Assembly (NCBI RefSeq): GCF_002119525.1 | Contig: NZ_CP017917.1 | Span: 868,001-932,000, forward strand | DNA length: 64,000 bases | Source of the DNA: Vibrio syngnathi | Lineage (GTDB): Bacteria > Pseudomonadota > Gammaproteobacteria > Enterobacterales > Vibrionaceae | Direction of reading: 5' to 3' | Notes under the pieces: model-generated | What the model saw: the letters and a program-made list of their open reading frames with translations, nothing else | Database searches by the model: none | Told to the model about the DNA's origin: nothing | Program-made: the position numbers and the translations under genes | In this document: positions 50,796 to 60,131 of the stretch, piece after piece | Numbering within the stretch: the first letter of the stretch is position 1 | Layout of the letters: the number at the start of each line of letters is the position of its first letter

Positions 50796-50933
50796 TTCAC
50801 CTTGATAAAAATTTCAAGGCGATATGCCCTTCCTATCCAATCGTACAATTTACTTAATAAAGTGGTTTCGGGCTTGTTCAACACTCGGGATTTAGTGTTG
50901 GCTACGCAACACCTTAATCCTTATCTTTTAGGT
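50796..50933. repeat. Long repeat, copy 1 (with attC)
   Basis: This 138-bp segment matches 57222-57359 base for base over most of its length. It consists of a 58-bp attC (50876-50933) plus 80 bp to its left. The sides diverge sharply outside. Confidence 0.8.
50876..50933 (-). other. attC site (58 bp)
   Basis: The plus strand reads GTTCAAC, then a stem-forming core with GTGTTG / CAACAC and GGATT / AATCC arms, and ends TTTAGGT (one change from a GTTRRRY core). The spacing is identical to the sites at 57302 and 57916. Confidence 0.65.
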
Positions 50934-52246: not shown

Positions 52247-52365
52247 AGAATTAGTATGTCAAACGACTAAATTTGGAGGCTAGCGCGAATAACGATAGCA
52301 TAATTTTCATTGACTTAGATACGCATGAGTCCTTCATACAAGTCGTTACATTGAAAGAGCATAGA

Positions 52366-52452
52366 GGCGAACAACGTGAACACCTTAAACACACAACTAA
52401 ACCAAGCTGAAAATTCCGAGTGTAGCAAATAGTGTTGATGCGATTGTTAACT
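52366..52452 (-). other. attC-like site after the Fic cassette
   Basis: GGCGAAC (52366-52372) and GTTAACT (52446-52452) bound an 87-bp imperfect palindrome. The Fic stop codon lies inside GTTAAC. The cassette's own left edge reads GTTAACCGC, the near complement of GCAGTTAAC here. Confidence 0.5.
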
Positions 52453-53049
52453 GCGCTTTTCAGCTTTAGTTACACAAACAGAAAACAGCTCTTTCATCGG
52501 CACATAATTACAATGATAACCATGGATATTTGCGGCTACCCACTGCTCAGAAGTAATACCAGCAAAATTAATATTGTAACCACAGTTGATTGCAATATGC
52601 TCAAACAACAAACGCTGAGCACGACCATTACCTTCTCGAAATGGATGTAGAACGTTAATGTCGCAATAATACTCAGCTAATTTAGTTAGAAATTCATCGT
52701 ATGGTAGATCCACTAAATACTTATCTTTTTCTAACATTGAAAACAGATTATTCGCTTCTTTTTCAATCCTAACTACATTACAGAAACGTGTATTTCCCTT
52801 TGAAATATCAATCGTTCTTAGTTCGCCTGCCCATTCAAATAGATCGGAGAACAAATTTTGATGAATTGAACGCAGGTAGCTGAAATCGTAAGGAGGTAAT
52901 TGAAACTCCACATACATTGCAGCTAACGTTGTTAAATCACGTTCAGCAGCCTCTAATACTGCTTCATTTCTGATATTGAGCTTATTAACAAGAACTGTAC
53001 TATTTTCGTAAGTATAAGGATCTTGTGTTGTGCCATATTTATCAGCCAT
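52447..53049 (-). CDS. Fic family AMP-transferase toxin (cassette gene)
   Basis: The 200-residue protein carries the Fic motif HPFREGNGRAQR near residue 135, with the catalytic His and the phosphate-binding GNGR. No inhibitory (S/T)xxxE(G/N) helix is seen in Fic itself, so it needs a separate antitoxin, which the preceding gene provides. Class I Fic toxins AMPylate host proteins such as type II topoisomerases; the target here is not known. The start overlaps the antitoxin end by 8 bp, so the pair is translationally coupled. The stop codon is inside an attC core. Confidence 0.85.
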   Translation of the reverse strand: MADKYGTTQDPYTYENSTVLVNKLNIRNEAVLEAAERDLTTLAAMYVEFQLPPYDFSYLRSIHQNLFSDLFEWAGELRTIDISKGNTRFCNVVRIEKEANNLFSMLEKDKYLVDLPYDEFLTKLAEYYCDINVLHPFREGNGRAQRLLFEHIAINCGYNINFAGITSEQWVAANIHGYHCNYVPMKELFSVCVTKAEKRS

Positions 53050-53497
53050 TGAGCGCCTCTAACGAATTTACGTTTGAGTATTTGTTTAACAAAATTTGAC
53101 GTTGTTGCTCTCTATCGAGTGATAAATCGAAATCACTAGCAACATCATGTCCCTCTAAACGCATACTTTCTTTAAAGTTATCCATTTTAACTTGTTCGAA
53201 ATAGGCATGTTTTTCTTCGTAAGAAGAAAGTATTGAATTACTTGGCATAACTAAATCAATCTCATTAAGTTGAGATTGAATCGTTATTCCTGACTCAAAG
53301 ACACCCCAGCTGTTAATAGAAAAACGAAAGGTTCGACCTTGGCGCTCTCTTTGAATATTTAAGCCTAAATTTTCAACTAATGAGTTAACTACGGATTGTA
53401 CTTTACGTTCAGAAATCCCAGTTGCAGCCACGATAGCTTGAGTATTTGGAGATTCCAATCGTGTCATTGCAGCTAAAACTAATAATTCGTACTTCAT
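53042..53497 (-). CDS. Fic antitoxin with N-terminal winged-helix-like domain
   Basis: The 151-residue protein starts at ATG 53497 (Shine-Dalgarno GAGGT, MKYELLVLAAMTRLESPNT). Residues about 1-70 look like a winged HTH (TQAIVAATGISERKVQSVVN, ERQGRTFRFSINSWG). The C-terminal 50 residues contain NFKESMRLEGHDV, which matches the class I Fic antitoxin inhibitory motif SxxxEG as in YhfG/VbhA. It should block the toxin's ATP site, and the HTH would allow autoregulation. The arrangement is unusual because known antitoxins of this class are typically about 55-60 residues. Confidence 0.75.
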   Translation of the reverse strand: MKYELLVLAAMTRLESPNTQAIVAATGISERKVQSVVNSLVENLGLNIQRERQGRTFRFSINSWGVFESGITIQSQLNEIDLVMPSNSILSSYEEKHAYFEQVKMDNFKESMRLEGHDVASDFDLSLDREQQRQILLNKYSNVNSLEALNG

Positions 53498-53599
53498 GCT
53501 TACCTCGCACATTTATGCGGAAATAATATTAGTCTACTACTCAAAGGGAATCATTACCATATTTGAAAACTAAATTAATAAAGAAGCGGTTAACGAATG

Positions 53600-53613
53600 A
53601 CATGGATTCCCCC
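53600..53613 (+). repeat. Left inverted repeat of the IS110-family element
   Basis: ACATGGATTCCCCC, the exact reverse complement of the right repeat at 54941-54954. Confidence 0.9.
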
Positions 53614-53663
53614 TACCGAGGACCTGCCACACTTATGTGGTACTTAAATGCACCGGAGGCACC

Positions 53664-54689
53664 ATGTCTGATTATTCTTATTTCTGCGGTATCGACCTAG
53701 CTAAAAACCACTTTAGCCTTCATGCCGTAGACCAAAATGGTAAAGTCTTACTTCATAAGTCAGTAACCCGCTCTAAACTACTGACTGCAATAGTAAATAT
53801 GCCACTCATGCGTATAGGCGTTGAAGCGTGTGGTGGTGCACATTATTGGGCAAGAACACTCAATAAACTGGGTCACGACACTCGCATTATGGCTGTTAAA
53901 TACGTAATTCCTTATCGAACTAAGGGAAAAAACGACCTTAATGATGCAGTCGCTATCTGCGAAGCTGTTCAGCGGCCATCAACTCGCTTTGTTCCTGTTA
54001 AGTCCCCCGAGCAACAAGCCATCTTATCGGTACATAGAATGAGAGAGCATTGGGTTCGTGAACGCACCGCGCTTATGAATCGCATGCGCGCCCTACTTTC
54101 TGAGTTCGGGTTGATCATTCCCGTTGGTCGCTCTTCATTGATGAAACAGGTTCCCTTAATGCTCGAAGATGCAGAAAATGAACTGCCACATCTCGCTAGA
54201 ACGGTGATTGCCGATGCTTATCACCACCTTGGTGAATTGAATCAACGTATCGCCGATACTGAACAAGTCTTTGATTCTTTTGCTAAGGTCAGCACTAATG
54301 TTCAACGAGTGATGAAGGTTCGAGGCATTGGTCCTCAAACCGCTACTGCGATACTCGCTTCGATAGGTAATGGCTCTCAATTTGATAAAAGCCGTGATTT
54401 CTCTGCTTGGCTAGGCTTAGTACCAAAACAATATTCGACGGGAGGAAAGCCTCGCTTAGGTCGGATAACCAAACACGGCGACAAATACTTACGAACACTA
54501 TTAGTTCACGGCGCAAGGACCGTGATTGCCAACCTTGGCGACAAGCAAGATAAGCTAAGTCAATGGTGTCGAGGCGTTCTAGAACGAAGAGGAATGAACC
54601 GAGCAATAGTGGCACTGGCCGCGAAGAACGCACGAATTATATGGTCACTTTTACACAATCAAACAGAATATAAAAACTATGCTGCTTAA
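53664..54689 (+). CDS. IS110-family transposase (DEDD recombinase)
   Basis: The 341-residue protein starts at ATG 53664 (Shine-Dalgarno GGAGG); the ORF to 53637 is longer but unlikely. The N-terminal DEDD RuvC-like domain has CGIDLAKNHFSLHAVD with the first Asp, RIGVEACGGAHYW with the Glu, and GKNDLNDAVAI with the paired Asp. The C-terminal IS116/IS110 domain has VRGIGPQTATAILASIG, GLVPKQYSTGGK and the catalytic-Ser region. It moves the element with an RNA guide and is intact. Confidence 0.92.
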   Translation: MSDYSYFCGIDLAKNHFSLHAVDQNGKVLLHKSVTRSKLLTAIVNMPLMRIGVEACGGAHYWARTLNKLGHDTRIMAVKYVIPYRTKGKNDLNDAVAICEAVQRPSTRFVPVKSPEQQAILSVHRMREHWVRERTALMNRMRALLSEFGLIIPVGRSSLMKQVPLMLEDAENELPHLARTVIADAYHHLGELNQRIADTEQVFDSFAKVSTNVQRVMKVRGIGPQTATAILASIGNGSQFDKSRDFSAWLGLVPKQYSTGGKPRLGRITKHGDKYLRTLLVHGARTVIANLGDKQDKLSQWCRGVLERRGMNRAIVALAAKNARIIWSLLHNQTEYKNYAA

Positions 54690-54940
54690 GTAAAAACCTA
54701 AGCAACATAAAGAGTTAAACCCACCGGGTCATTGCAGACGCTAATGATGGAGATAGGTTAAGACCACTTGCGGAGAGCCTGTTAATGCGGCGGACACACT
54801 AGATGTCATCTAACGAATAAGGCACCGCAGTCGCGCAAAGTCATCAGGGCCACGACGTATGCGAATCGTCGATAAGTAGGCCGAATGTAGAGCGGCAGTC
54901 CAAAACCCATCAACATAAGTTTAGCGGATGTTTGACAACC
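54690..54940 (+). ncRNA. Predicted seekRNA/bridge RNA region of the IS110-family element
   Basis: In the IS1111 group the guide RNA is encoded at the 3' non-coding end. Here that region contains TAACGAAT (54811-54818), identical to the left flank at 53591-53598. It also contains AGGGCCAC (54846-54853), the reverse complement of GTGGCCCT at the right junction (54953-54960). The two matches are 27 nt apart. RNA ends and folding were not computed. Confidence 0.7.
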
Positions 54941-54954
54941 GGGGGAATCCATGT
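54941..54954 (-). repeat. Right inverted repeat of the IS110-family element
   Basis: GGGGGAATCCATGT, the reverse complement of the left repeat. Confidence 0.9.
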
Positions 54955-54956
54955 GG

Positions 54957-55075
54957 CCCTTGTTAAGGTGTGAGCAACGCAATACCTAAGCCGACGCATA
55001 CCGCCTTAATCACTAAAACCAACGTATAGTAAAAATGCCATGCGTTGCGAATCACTCTTAAACAGTTTGTTGAAC
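54957..55075 (-). other. Long Vibrio-type attC (right part, interrupted by the IS)
   Basis: Read on the minus strand this begins GTTCAAC (55069-55075 on plus is GTTGAAC) and continues AAACTGTTTAAGAGTGATTC with arms GCAACGC / GCGTTGC and TTAAG / CTTAA. Translation gives NAWHFYYTLVLVIKAVCVGL, the DUF3265 signature that is really translated attC. The distal end, with GTTAACC, lies on the other side of the IS at 53588-53598. Confidence 0.8.
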
Positions 55076-55161
55076 GAAGCCGCTGCGCGGCAGATTAAAA
55101 CGAGTGCAAGCCATACTCTTGTAACACCATCACCCTGATGGTCATTCACAGGAGTAACCCC

Positions 55162-56049
55162 ATGAAACCCGATGACTTAAAACGCTACAACACCCTTTAT
55201 GAACAACACCTTACCAACCTAAAGCTGCAAGGTAAACGACCTGCGACGATCGATGCCTATTCTCGTGCGGTTCGTCGGATCACCGCTCATTTCGATCGCG
55301 TACCTGACACGTTAACCACTGCCGATCTCAAACAGTTCTTCGCGTCTCTTATTCAAACCCATTCGTGGAGCACCATTAAACTCGATCGTAATGGCTTGCA
55401 GTTTTTCTATCGCTACACGCTCGATAAACAGTGGGAGTGGCTCAATATCGTCAAGCCGCCACAAGTAAAACGACTGCCCGACATACTGACACCACAGCAA
55501 GTCAGCTCTCTGATTACTTACACTCGACAGGCACGTTATCAGGTGTTTTTTCTTACTCTGTACAGCATGGGATTACGACTCAGTGAGGGATTAAATCTTA
55601 CGGTTCATGATATCGACAGCCAAACAATGCGCGTTCACATACGGGAAGGAAAAGGCGGAAAAGACCGAATGGTGCCGCTTCCTCTGCGAACGCTTAAGGC
55701 ACTCCGCACACACTGGCTCAGCCATAAACACCCTCGATTACTGTTTCCCGGGCTTAGAAAAGGTGACGACGCACCGATGGACAGAGGCGGTATTCAAAAA
55801 ACAATGAAGCTTGTACTCAAAGAATGCGGAATCCAAAAACACGCCAGCCCCCACTCACTTAGACATTGCTTTGCAACGCACTTACTTGAGCGAGGGCTTG
55901 ACCTGCGTTCACTGCAAACGCTACTGGGTCACGCAAGCCTTAACACCACTGCTCGTTACACTCGAATGACCCAAATAAAGCAGCGCGATGCCGTAATGGC
56001 CATCAACCAATTAACGGATGCTCTAGACTTAACAGGGAGCATGAAATGA
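55162..56049 (+). CDS. Tyrosine recombinase of IS91-type module A
   Basis: The 295-residue protein starts at ATG 55162 (Shine-Dalgarno AGGAG); the earlier ATG 55138 is less likely. An N-terminal SAM-like core-binding domain (residues about 8-95) precedes the catalytic domain with Arg in MGLRLSEG, Lys in GKGGKDR, HSLRHCFATH, LLGHASL and Tyr in TTARYTR. All catalytic residues are present. It lacks the integron-integrase insertion, so it is not IntI. Its stop overlaps the transposase start as ATGA. Confidence 0.9.
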   Translation: MKPDDLKRYNTLYEQHLTNLKLQGKRPATIDAYSRAVRRITAHFDRVPDTLTTADLKQFFASLIQTHSWSTIKLDRNGLQFFYRYTLDKQWEWLNIVKPPQVKRLPDILTPQQVSSLITYTRQARYQVFFLTLYSMGLRLSEGLNLTVHDIDSQTMRVHIREGKGGKDRMVPLPLRTLKALRTHWLSHKHPRLLFPGLRKGDDAPMDRGGIQKTMKLVLKECGIQKHASPHSLRHCFATHLLERGLDLRSLQTLLGHASLNTTARYTRMTQIKQRDAVMAINQLTDALDLTGSMK

Positions 56050-57098
56050 GTACGTTCATTGAGCTGCTTCGCCAACATCACCGTGCGCTTAAGCGTCACT
56101 ATCATGCTCAGATGAATGGCGATATGCATCGGGCCATTGGGGCGATGCTCCGTTGCAAGACCGAGCAACAAGGTCGCTCACAATGGTTCTGCAGTCACTG
56201 TCATCACGACGACCGATTACCGCTTTCTTGTGGTCACCGACACTGCCCTCAATGCCAACAACGCACCACTTCTGACTGGCTACAACGTCAACAGCAAAAG
56301 CGGTTACCTGTTCACTATTTCATGGTGACCTTCACTTTGCCGTATCAACTAAGAGTCTTAGCAAGACATCAACCTAGAGCGACATATAACGGTATGTTTA
56401 AGGTGGCATCGGGGGTTTTAAAGGACTTTGCGAAAAGACAGATGCAAGGTGAACTTGGGTTTACCGCCGTGCTGCATACCCACAGCCGACAACGAAACTT
56501 GCATCCACACCTGCATATTATTGTGACGGCAGGCCAATACGACCCATCAAGACAAACGTGGCACAAAGGCAACAAGCATTACCTTTTTAACGCGTTTGCT
56601 TTGGCCAAAGTCTGGCGAGCAAGAATGCTAGAGGCGATTAATCAACATCCTACGTTGTGGCTGCCGAGTGGCATTCCCAAACAATGGGTGGTCGATTGTA
56701 GGCAGGTTGGTTACGGTCAGTCAGCACTGAGCTATTTGTCGCGCTACCTCTATCGCGGCGTGTTGCCTGATGAAGACATCATCCATATCACCGATGATAC
56801 CGTCACCTTCCGCTATAAAGAGAGCCAAGCCAAAGCATGGCGAACGCGCACCTTGCCCATCCTTAAGTTCTTATTGCTCATTTTGCAGCACGTGCTCCCC
56901 AAAGGGTTACAACGAGTTCGGGATTACGGATTTTTACGTGGTCAGGCACACGCCTTAAGAGCCCGCATTCAACTGCTGTTATTGAACTTGGTCTATAGGA
57001 TGCCGCCACTCACCGCCCCGATAAGGAGCAAAGCGACACGGGTATGCCCTTGCTGTGAGCATGAGATGGCGTGCGTTGGAGTGAGCCGACCCATGTAG
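56046..57098 (+). CDS. IS91-family transposase of module A
   Basis: The 350-residue protein has an N-terminal zinc finger (CSHCHHDDRLPLSCGHRHCP), a HUH motif (LHPHLHIIVTAG near residue 155) and a C-terminal Tyr pair region (SYLSRYLYRG). It belongs to the rolling-circle IS91 group. It appears complete, ending in CEHEMACVGVS. The overlap with the recombinase mirrors module B, so recombinase-transposase coupling is conserved between two diverged modules. Confidence 0.9.
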   Translation: MSTFIELLRQHHRALKRHYHAQMNGDMHRAIGAMLRCKTEQQGRSQWFCSHCHHDDRLPLSCGHRHCPQCQQRTTSDWLQRQQQKRLPVHYFMVTFTLPYQLRVLARHQPRATYNGMFKVASGVLKDFAKRQMQGELGFTAVLHTHSRQRNLHPHLHIIVTAGQYDPSRQTWHKGNKHYLFNAFALAKVWRARMLEAINQHPTLWLPSGIPKQWVVDCRQVGYGQSALSYLSRYLYRGVLPDEDIIHITDDTVTFRYKESQAKAWRTRTLPILKFLLLILQHVLPKGLQRVRDYGFLRGQAHALRARIQLLLLNLVYRMPPLTAPIRSKATRVCPCCEHEMACVGVSRPM

Positions 57099-57221: not shown

Positions 57222-57359
57222 CTCGCCTTGAGAAAAGCCTCAAAGCGATGTGCCCTTCAAATACAATCGTACAATTTACTTAATAAAGTGGCTTCGGGCT
57301 TGTTCAACACTTGGGATTTAGTGTTGTCTGCGCAACACCTTAATCCTTATTCGTTATAA
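57222..57359. repeat. Long repeat, copy 2 (with attC)
   Basis: Second copy of the 138-bp segment seen at 50796-50933. Its attC part is 57302-57359. Confidence 0.8.
57302..57359 (-). other. attC site (58 bp) of the 179-aa cassette
   Basis: GTTCAAC at the left and GTTATAA at the right (plus strand) flank a stem with GTGTTG / CAACAC and GGATT / AATCC arms. On the minus strand the cassette's attC begins GGCTTATAAC, the exact complement of the cassette start GTTATAAGCC at its other end. Confidence 0.75.
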
Positions 57360-58185: not shown

Positions 58186-59277
58186 CTAGGTCAGTCGGTG
58201 CTCTGAAACGACTATCCTAGGTCTAATATTGATGCACACGAGTACCATGCTGTTGCTATGGCAGTTCGGACAACAAGGTTTCTCTTTCAGCACTTCCGAT
58301 TTCTCTGCGGGTCGCTTTCGTAAGCTTTGCCTAATTTCCGCTATCGCTTTTACCCGCACAGCATTAGCTAGAAAGCCATAGTAGCGTATTCGCATTAGCC
58401 CTTTAGGCAACACATGTAAAAGTAAGCGTCGAAGTAACTCGCCCGCATTACAACACATTCTTTGCGTCCCATTGGTTCGGTAGTCTTTGTAACTCATCGT
58501 GATACGGCCATCCACGTTATAACTTAATTGGTTGGGATTTAACCCGATACGATTGCAATACCGAGATAGATAACTCACTACCGCTGTAGGCTCGTGGAGT
58601 ACAGGTTTACTGTACACAACCCATCTCTTACTAGCGGCTTCCTCTAATAAATTACTGTGCGTTGCTATTAACTCGCTTACTCGACATAACATCTCTTTCT
58701 TAAAGCGAACGGATAAGGCTTTAACCGGGAGCAGGTAACTCTCTTTTCTTGTCGGTTGCCATTGCCGATCTTTTGTAAGCACCCCACTCGGTAGTAGGCA
58801 ATGAATATGAGTATGTTGACTCAGATTTCTTCCCCAAGTATGAAGAACCATTAATGCTCCAAGTTGACCGACAAGGTGATGCCGCTCATTAGCAAACGCG
58901 CATAATGTTGCCCACACTGAATGAAACAAGCATTGATAAACCACCTTAGGATGCGCTTTAACCAGAGCATTGAACTCGTGAGGTAAGGTAAAAACCATAT
59001 GATGGTAGGCCACAGGTAAAATATCTTGGCTTCGCTTTGTTAGCCATTGCTGTCTCATCTGCTCTTGGCAATTGGGGCAATGACGATCTCGACAAGAACA
59101 GTACCAACGAGTTTCATGGCCACATTGCTGACAACGCCAGTCGTAACTGCCCATACGCTCCGTTCGGCAGTCTCTTAAATGGTTAAGCACTTGCCACTGT
59201 CTCGGTGTGACTTTGCTTTTATCAAGCTCTTCTAAGCCTTGTGTTAATACGGCTTGGTAAGGAGATAATGCGTTCAT
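58186..59277 (-). CDS. IS91-family transposase of module B
   Basis: The 363-residue protein starts at ATG 59277 (Shine-Dalgarno GGAGGAG). It has an N-terminal zinc finger (CQQCGHETRWYCSCRDRHCP), a HUH-type motif (LSQHTHIHCLLPSG near residue 155) and a SYLSRYCNRIGLN Tyr region. Its stop-to-start overlap with the recombinase is ATGA. It is diverged from module A's transposase, so the two modules are separate acquisitions. Confidence 0.9.
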   Translation of the reverse strand: MNALSPYQAVLTQGLEELDKSKVTPRQWQVLNHLRDCRTERMGSYDWRCQQCGHETRWYCSCRDRHCPNCQEQMRQQWLTKRSQDILPVAYHHMVFTLPHEFNALVKAHPKVVYQCLFHSVWATLCAFANERHHLVGQLGALMVLHTWGRNLSQHTHIHCLLPSGVLTKDRQWQPTRKESYLLPVKALSVRFKKEMLCRVSELIATHSNLLEEAASKRWVVYSKPVLHEPTAVVSYLSRYCNRIGLNPNQLSYNVDGRITMSYKDYRTNGTQRMCCNAGELLRRLLLHVLPKGLMRIRYYGFLANAVRVKAIAEIRQSLRKRPAEKSEVLKEKPCCPNCHSNSMVLVCINIRPRIVVSEHRLT

Positions 59278-60131
59278 TCGCTCTCCTCCCATAGTTGAGC
59301 AACTAAGTCGAACTTACTTCCGTCCGAGCTTTCGTTGTGATGACCTATCCAATGGGTGTACCTCAATGTCGTTTTGATATTCGAATGTCCGAGGTAACGC
59401 TGCAGAACATTCAAAGGCATGCCCGATTCGAGCTGATGAGTCGCATAAGCGTGCCTCAAGGCGTGTATTCCTCCTAATTTTCTGACGTTTGCCTCAACTT
59501 TTGCTGCTTTGAAGCACTTCTGCAAAGAGCTAATACCCAATGGCTTTTCGGGCTCTAGGCTGGGAAACAGCACTACGGTTGGGTGATAATGACGCCAGTA
59601 ATTTCGAAGATGATTCAGTTGGCTATCACCCAGTGGAACAAAGCGATCTTTTTTACCTTTACCACAATGAATGTGCAGTCGTTTCGCCGTACCATCGATG
59701 TCTTTCACGTACAAGCCGACGACCTCACTGACACGTAGGCCACACCCGTAACACATTTCAAGTGCGGTCTGATATTTAAGACTTCGACAATGACTAATGA
59801 TACTTCTTACTTCCTCGCGATTAAGCAGCTCCGGTATTTTACTGGCACGTTTAATCGGGGGAACCAGTCGCTCTTCAAATTCCCTATTCAAAACGGCACG
59901 ATAAAAGAACAAGATGGCATTCAACGCTTGAGCACAAGTACTGCTACTTAAGTTCCGCTCTTTAATGAGCGTGCGCAAATACGCACTAATCTGTTGATCG
60001 GTAAGTAAATCGGGAGATAGATCGTAAGTAGTAGATAGATCTTTAACCCAACGTAAATAGCTAGCATGGGTTTTCGGAGAAAAACGGCGAACCGCCATTT
60101 CATCGATAAGTTGTTGTCTTAATGGGCTCAT
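59274..60131 (-). CDS. Tyrosine recombinase of IS91-type module B
   Basis: The 285-residue protein has the full catalytic set: Arg in CGLRVSEVVG, Lys in CGKGKKDR, HALRHAYATHQ, LGHSNIKTT and Tyr in TLRYTH. The N-terminal domain (residues about 5-90) is of the Xer/integrase type. It is shorter than IntI and lacks its extra patch. A 9-bp inverted repeat (ATGATGTAT / ATACATCAT, 60130-60138 / 60153-60161) covers its start codon and could hide it in the mRNA. Confidence 0.9.
   Translation of the reverse strand: MSPLRQQLIDEMAVRRFSPKTHASYLRWVKDLSTTYDLSPDLLTDQQISAYLRTLIKERNLSSSTCAQALNAILFFYRAVLNREFEERLVPPIKRASKIPELLNREEVRSIISHCRSLKYQTALEMCYGCGLRVSEVVGLYVKDIDGTAKRLHIHCGKGKKDRFVPLGDSQLNHLRNYWRHYHPTVVLFPSLEPEKPLGISSLQKCFKAAKVEANVRKLGGIHALRHAYATHQLESGMPLNVLQRYLGHSNIKTTLRYTHWIGHHNESSDGSKFDLVAQLWEESE

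Follow-up and report, generated by a model that had tools for sequence, protein, structure and literature searches.

An IS1111-Type Insertion Sequence of Vibrionaceae at Integron attC Sites, with a Predicted Guide RNA That Covaries with Its Flanks

The window, by which we mean the whole 64,000-nt stretch of Vibrio syngnathi DNA that was analyzed, contains a real and complete insertion sequence (IS) of the IS1111 type, a Vibrio member of the known kind of attC-targeting IS1111 elements that bear a seekRNA/bridge RNA. The explanation that we favor, and consider very probably correct, is that the element belongs to a Vibrionaceae clade targeting integron attC sites and that the RNA of its noncoding region (NCR) carries both target guides in one loop, together with probable donor-reading segments. 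A preliminary description of the same DNA had drawn attention to two 8-mers of the NCR that repeat the insertion flanks; the observation was confirmed in part, and its interpretation was partly supported.

The anatomy, the boundaries and the insertion site of the element were established by sequence comparison, with the following features.

53595..54955, + strand: IS1111-type insertion sequence of 1361 bp, its ends set against uninterrupted attC sites reading TAACGCC.
53664..54689, + strand: DEDD transposase of 341 aa (Pfam, NCBIfam, motif in the translation).
53602..53613, + strand: left subterminal inverted repeat ATGGATTCCCCC (14 bp including the neighboring AC), 100% complementary to the right repeat.
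54941..54952, + strand: right subterminal inverted repeat GGGGGAATCCAT, which pairs with the left one.
53591..53594, + strand: TAAC, the left target flank, that is, the crossover end of attC (comparison with uninterrupted sites).
54956..55075, + strand: remaining part of the interrupted attC, i.e., the right flank, up to GTTGAAC (similarity to uninterrupted attC-like sites).

The transposase matched both Pfam DEDD_Tnp_IS110 (PF01548) and Transposase_20 (PF02371), as well as NCBIfam NF033542 (IS110 family RNA-guided transposase; 340.5 bits against a cut-off of 140), and its translation contains the motif GLVPKQYSTG, of the GL-P----S(t)G pattern. As in IS1111 elements generally, a long NCR (about 250 nt, 54690-54940) lies downstream of the transposase gene and before the right repeat, and the inverted repeats, perfect over 14 bp (53600-53613 and 54941-54954), are subterminal, leaving a 7-bp left extension (GAATGAC) and a 3-bp right extension (GTG in the window copy). 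The assignment to IS110/IS1111 in the preliminary description is thus upheld, as IS1111 type, by transposase families, repeats and NCR position; the limits given there, 53591..54960, exceeded the element by 4-5 bp at either end.

The loci compared comprised 71 from genome records, the best-match loci from 227 congeneric genomes (a match was present in 103) and 40 stretches around insertions. Near-full-length places of relatives, with those of two sister transposases added, numbered 180, repeated views of a single copy included; a candidate inverted repeat was present in 171 of these places and absent from 9. Once 10 of the 171 had been dropped for unclear boundaries or short flanks, de-duplication yielded 105 elements with distinct sites, all related by descent: 61 in clade A (the clade of the window element), 21 in clade B, 11 in clade C and 12 others. 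Without exception, the left extension and the right flank of these 105 elements start with the same base.

In uninterrupted attC sites of the same arrays TAAC and GCC adjoin, meaning that the IS inserts without added bases, and interrupted sites read TAAC/GAATGAC-ATGGATTCC ... GGAATCCAT-GTA/GCCNNNTTAAG (slashes mark the IS ends). This comparison indicates that the IS carries the 7-bp and 3-bp extensions of IS1111 and sits at TAAC^GCC. In the usual attC direction, the insertion point is GGC^GTTA, at the crossover end of attC and one base away from G^TTA, which we take to be the integron crossover; a target adjoining the attC crossover is what the preliminary description had predicted.

TAAC was present in 122 of 134 left ends (de-duplicated by flank, truncated copies included). 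The pattern used for right ends also matched reversed left ends, whose removal reduced the set from 210 to 95; among these 95, likewise de-duplicated by flank, the first three flanking bases were G, C and C in 90, 89 and 87 cases, respectively, and 75 (4 of them from clade B) fitted GCCNNN[TC]TAA, corresponding to a single position in a single orientation. The elements therefore show the fixed position and orientation at one attC end that mark IS1111-attC elements. Natural uninterrupted targets are exemplified by TAACGCCGCATTAA, TAACGCCCTGTTAA and TAACGCCCAATTAA. A set of 113 empty sites, taken from the arrays around insertions, had been located through the TAACGCC pattern itself and cannot serve to test that motif; 81 uninterrupted attC-like rows found by the attC arm can. 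Immediately ahead of the arm, TAACGCCNNN occurred in 38/81 rows (51/81 within one mismatch), and TAACGCC was exact in 38/81.

The window's right flank (54956-55085) was similar to 66 of the 113 uninterrupted attC-like sites, the best match being 91% over 114 nt, and the attC hairpin fold of the interrupted site was only modestly better than that of shuffled sequences (z = -1.67; 15 of 200). No empty allele of the exact locus was found among the relatives' genomes searched. The Fic/YhfG cassette was present in four of them (G129, G193, G178 and G156), none with a clean empty attC adjoining: next to it stood a degraded left end of the same IS type in G193 and other DNA in the remaining three. 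Insertion at the crossover end would be expected to block that attC and so to fix cassettes in place.

The NCR contains the following segments, which are assigned from predicted structure and comparison.

54690..54940, + strand: NCR coding for the predicted seekRNA/bridge RNA (structure and covariation).
54769..54829, + strand: target-binding hairpin, with stems TGCGG/CCGCA, GCCT/AGGC and GACA/TGTC around one internal loop (fold; the inner two stems are in the covariation count).
54782..54791, + strand: right-flank target guide TTAATGCGGC, complementary to the target GCCGCATTAA (class comparison, permutation test).
54810..54815, + strand: left-flank target guide CTAACG, followed by AAT at 54816-54818 (class comparison).
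54846..54853, + strand: AGGGCCAC, previously described as the right guide, part of a structural helix between GGCC 54848-54851 and GGCC 54879-54882 (helix covariation).

The structure was evaluated on an alignment of 31 NCRs (27 distinct) whose ranges were set by hand. The covariation count excludes the outer stems, because that of clade B is shifted by one base in the alignment. Over the whole NCR structure, 98.8% of the cells were paired and the covariation score exceeded that of all 500 shuffles; the number of pairs with changes on both sides was equalled in 8 of 500 shuffles, while further pair types, 9 against a shuffle mean of 13.4, fell below every shuffle, which counts against covariation. 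The covariation and the consensus fold point to a conserved secondary structure with the guides in loops, as in seekRNA/bridge RNA; the preliminary description had attributed this architecture to the 3' NCR, and the predicted structure agrees. An Rfam scan of the 64-kb window returned nothing at gathering scores.

In the clade A fold, TTAATGCGGC and CTAACG form the two strands of one internal loop. For 97 of the 105 elements, 12 guide classes could be defined. In these, a stretch of the NCR directly following a CCTG-like motif pairs with the right flank typical of the class, and a match to the left flank comes about 24-29 nt past this stretch. Among the 8 elements outside all classes, two were clade A relatives with altered letters, and in six (L205, L068, L220, L244, L245 and L248) no convincing right guide was seen.

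A class-based permutation used guide places that were partly derived from the flanks, so the test to rely on is an unanchored scan of the whole NCR over 21 NCR-cluster representatives. There, shuffled assignments reached the observed agreement between right guide and flank in 0 of 100,000 permutations at L = 8, 9 and 10, and that between left guide and flank in 0, 3 and 28 of 100,000 at L = 5, 6 and 7, respectively. Guides and flanks thus covary across relatives within a conserved predicted structure, and on these comparisons the right guide is TTAATGCGGC, on the strand opposite the left guide in the same loop, and not AGGGCCAC. In the scanned NCR, the best pairing of the right flank landed on the loop guide in 55 of the 61 clade A elements; the six exceptions, with their best pairing elsewhere, were L164, L163, L123, L041, L179 and the window copy, whose right flank GCCCTTGTTAAG pairs poorly with its own guide. 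For the clade, then, the NCR matches both target strands, with the segment for the top strand lying 5', as in seekRNA/bridge RNA; in the window copy the right flank has probably drifted.

The left guide proposed earlier, TAACGAAT, is found both at 53591-53598 and at 54811-54818, and a guide does sit in the latter segment. The 8-mer is composite, however: TAAC is target, and GAAT is the start of the left extension GAATGAC. The preliminary description had expected TAACGAAT in uninterrupted homologous sites. It preceded the attC arm in 0 of the 81 uninterrupted rows, because GAAT is IS sequence; used literally as a refuting condition, that expectation would have misfired. We also considered GAAT as a general reader of the IS left end and rejected it, since clusters D and G have the left extension TAAT and the guide TGAT, and two Grimontia elements (L048 and L058) have TAACGCC in the loop. 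In these Grimontia elements the left-guide strand consists of TAACGCC and an extra stretch, matching the uninterrupted target beyond the IS end.

The other 8-mer, AGGGCCAC at 54846-54853, is indeed the reverse complement of GTGGCCCT at 54953-54960, and the two NCR 8-mers lie 27 nt apart, as had been reported. GTGGCCCT is composite too, being made of GTG from the element's own right extension and GCCCT from the target. When the NCR was resampled 20,000 times under a Markov-1 model, chance recurrence of a junction 8-mer was seen in 6.2% of cases for the left side, 5.1% for the right and 0.33% for both, so that each match by itself, with a 5-6% chance of recurrence, is weak. The model in which TAACGAAT and AGGGCCAC act as left and right guides spelling out the flanks nonetheless draws on more than the existence of the 8-mers: the best ungapped pairing of the window's right flank lands on TCATCAGGGC, and CAGGGC matches GCCCTG, which is enriched among used sites (22/75, 4 of the 75 being clade B, vs 10/113 empty sites; Fisher 6e-4). 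We regard it as very improbable all the same. Its AGGGCC falls within the covarying helix GGCC/GGCC, which becomes GGTC/GACC and GGTG/CACC in relatives, with changes on both sides at two of the four pairs (12/27 and 9/27 rows; pair types UA/CG and CG/GC/AU). The segment is nearly invariant in clade A (TCATCAGGGCCA in 45/61, TCATCAGGGTCA in 13/61) although the sites vary, while over 21 clusters it is the loop strand that tracks the right flank. The GCCCTG enrichment does not favor AGGGCCAC either, as clade B elements are inserted at GCCCTG too (n = 5) and at the place in question carry CAAGG in four cases and CAGGG in one. Moreover, the exact 8-nt match hinges on G at 54955, i.e., on a GTG end, whereas the last base of the right extension is A in 88/95 right ends and G in 4/95; it is also A in the syntenic copy of genome G212, which reads GTAGCCCT. 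We conclude that AGGGCCAC is not the right guide.

A different objection is that attC might be recognized by a protein or through DNA structure, namely the folded attC, the matches in the loop being by-products. attC sites form hairpins, and most clade A copies do occupy attC-like sites (right flank starting with GCC in 57/61, left flank ending with TAAC in 57/61), as such recognition would predict. But 12 guide classes show joint changes of loop strand and flank, several of them at flanks that are not attC-like by eye, and different guides favor different attC subtypes, which is why we give this possibility hardly any weight and retain recognition by the two loop guides.

The preference of guides for attC subtypes emerged from elements with right flanks starting with GCC, which include 55 of the 59 TTAATGCGGC elements. 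GC-type sites were used by 29/55 elements with TTAATGCGGC vs 0/12 with TTAATTGGG (Fisher 7e-4), and CAA sites by 0/55 vs 6/12 (Fisher 9e-6), CAA accounting for 2/71 of the clade A right ends taken alone; CTG sites were used by both guide groups (14/55 and 5/12, respectively). At the three variable bases, a fit to the guide with a score of at least 2 was found in 41/75 used sites vs 38/113 empty ones (p = 0.003); by Mann-Whitney the difference gave 0.002, or 0.03 against 61 stricter empty sites. The perfect fit, GCA, was not enriched (14/75 used vs 18/113 empty, p = 0.38). GCCCTG, the seat of many clade members, has one mismatch and two wobbles to the guide. Enrichment of CTG but not of GCA implies loose pairing at these three positions.

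Other clade B guides go with right flanks TTTATAG, GAGCACA, AAGCTAA and TTGCTAA, the left guide being unchanged. Clade C (L075 type, n = 11) mostly occupies a different position within that attC, TTAAGG^TGTGAGC. In three clade B elements (L200, L202 and L251), guide and right flank are both of the TTTATA type (GCTTTATAGACGG in L200 and L202, GCTTTATATACGG in L251), and beyond this the L200/L202 flank forms a short inverted repeat with a T run in its middle and is not attC-like. Two loci (L175 and L233) have nested insertions: the right flank of the clade A element is itself interrupted by an L075-type IS1111, which occupies the other target position of that attC. We put forward, tentatively and with divided minds, that the left guide is anchored to the crossover-end TAAC while the right guide evolves, that clades share out the attC subtypes of integron arrays through changes in the latter strand alone, with a third clade at another attC position, and that a single RNA may hold four addresses, a pair for the target and a pair for the donor ends, each evolving separately.

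As for the donor, three segments of the NCR are relevant.

54840..54844, + strand: GTCAT, a candidate donor guide that complements ATGAC in the left extension (conserved position, permutation).
54885..54891, + strand: candidate donor guide ATGTAGA, matching the usual circle junction AT-GTA/GA (AT-GTG/GA in this copy) (permutation).
54932..54937, + strand: TTGACA, the -35 box of a predicted junction promoter; where the end is the usual GTA, TAGAAT would follow at a distance of 16 bp (read off the sequence).

In relatives with ATGAT, ATGAA or ATGAG in the left extension, the NCR reads ATCAT, TTCAT or CTCAT, respectively. Placement of GTCAT rests on its conserved position, because the clade A NCR contains a longer match, GTCATT, elsewhere. 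On the junction side, elements with ATA/TG have ATATATG, and L248 (ATA/CGA) has ATATACGA. Over the 21 NCR-cluster representatives, permutations gave 3, 0, 0 and 8 of 100,000 in four query windows for the junction, vs 10,070 and 4,303 in two others; for the left extension, in a 110-nt part of the NCR, they gave 0 and 7 of 100,000, vs 12,252 for the shortest query window. The donor segments thus track the ends of their element in six of the nine query windows and fail to do so in three, and a role of GTCAT and ATGTAGA as donor-reading segments, as these matches suggest, is likely, albeit not settled. With the usual GTA end, the predicted circle junction would read TTGACA-N16-TAGAAT (TGGAAT in the window copy), and 86/105 elements have a TTGACA-like box, with at most one mismatch, within the terminal 30 nt of their parsed NCR.

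Taken together, the most likely mechanism is that the 3' NCR would be transcribed into an RNA that binds the transposase. In this RNA, the right guide TTAATGCGGC would pair with the top strand of the target, at GCCGCATTAA and its variants to the right of the cut, and the left guide CTAACG would pair with the bottom strand on the other side; the two pairings would direct insertion to TAAC^GCC, one base from the integron crossover; GTCAT and ATGTAGA, which match the IS ends, would probably select the donor, i.e., the junction of a presumed circle.

Whether or not the family works in this way, the window copy might be an old, perhaps inactive insertion with a drifted right junction, a reading that is compatible with our preferred one for the family and that we deem rather unlikely. 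The GTG end weakens both the -10 element of the predicted junction promoter (TGGAAT vs TAGAAT) and the match to the donor guide, and the window's right flank has one extra T. Most of the 12 kb around the IS is collinear in genome G212 (97.4% in a 2693-bp stretch spanning the IS), where the syntenic copy (L095) reads GTA/GCCCTG, so GTG and the extra T are most simply explained as later changes and the insertion is probably older than the split. Against inactivity, the 341-aa ORF is intact, the subterminal inverted repeat is perfect, and guides and helices are like those of relatives.

A Fic-domain gene and a YhfG-like partner occupy a cassette-like position at 52300-53512 of the window. At 55138-57098 and 58186-60131 there are two units, each with a tyrosine recombinase gene and an IS91-family transposase gene (Pfam; for the first unit also NCBIfam), the first of which begins beside the interrupted attC. 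In the element's own two-contig genome, one integron integrase scored above the family cut-off, on the other contig (C1). The same genome has eight further left ends of this IS with at most two mismatches (C2 421-428 kb, L009; L010, L011 and L013), several of them cut near IS position 300, where they pass into a shared tail and then an attC-like end. The span from TAACGAAT to an end of the ATTCGTTA type (at most two mismatches) was 573-599 bp in 3/8 and 365-387 bp in 2/8, with no such end in 3/8. Other members of the genus, too, have left-end pieces of similar length in their genomes, and these short pieces are possibly nonautonomous derivatives. The attC-like end TAACGAATAAGGATTAAGGTGTT is frequent in the own genome (15 places with at most three mismatches, vs 0 for a reversed-pattern control), for example at 57334-57356 and 50908-50930 of the window; it has 12 letters (TAACGAATAAGG) in common with the left-guide strand of the IS, yet right flanks beginning with GAATAAGG numbered 0/95.

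IS1111 elements inserted in attC, namely ISKpn4, ISPst6, ISPa25 and ISPa21, were reportedly treated by Post and Hall in 2009 and by Tetu and Holmes in 2008. The window element is like them in its IS1111 type and in its insertion at one attC end, and differs in forming part of a Vibrionaceae clade; among the best 30 of at least 5000 matching records, the closest IS-named match was ISShdy1, at 52%. Titles and abstract openings of the matches listed for the literature on IS1111, attC, seekRNA, bridge RNA and Vibrio superintegrons, mostly without subscription papers, contained no description of this Vibrio clade. PMC11187229 describes a seekRNA in ISKpn4 and in ISPst6 and predicts one in ISPa25, and PMC11616780 places ISPa21 in integron cassettes. 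A Shewanella study reports no IS interrupting attC in its set (PMC9229058).

In the IS1111 seekRNA, as far as the consulted sections of Siddiquee et al. 2024 (PMC11187229) go, the top-strand match lies 5' of the bottom-strand match and the two overlap in the target, an order identical to the one found here; relative to that work, the present data add natural covariation over 105 sites and two candidate donor segments. With the IS110/IS1111 bridge RNA (Durrant et al. 2024, PMC11208160) the predicted RNA shares a target loop with left and right guides and, probably, donor-binding nucleotides. That paper places the donor nucleotides in a multi-loop in many IS1111 elements and relies on inspection of three members per group to predict the guides for target and donor, whereas our donor segments were permutation-tested over 21 NCR-cluster representatives, with mixed results across query windows. 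The position of the right guide is corrected, target bases are told apart from IS end bases, and donor-reading segments in an IS1111-type RNA receive statistical, though mixed, support. Irrespective of the donor side, about 100 sites with their guides, in which sister elements favor different attC subtypes, amount to a natural experiment in guide reprogramming. That IS1111 elements target attC with a seekRNA/bridge RNA was already known; what is added here is a Vibrio member and a natural retargeting data set.
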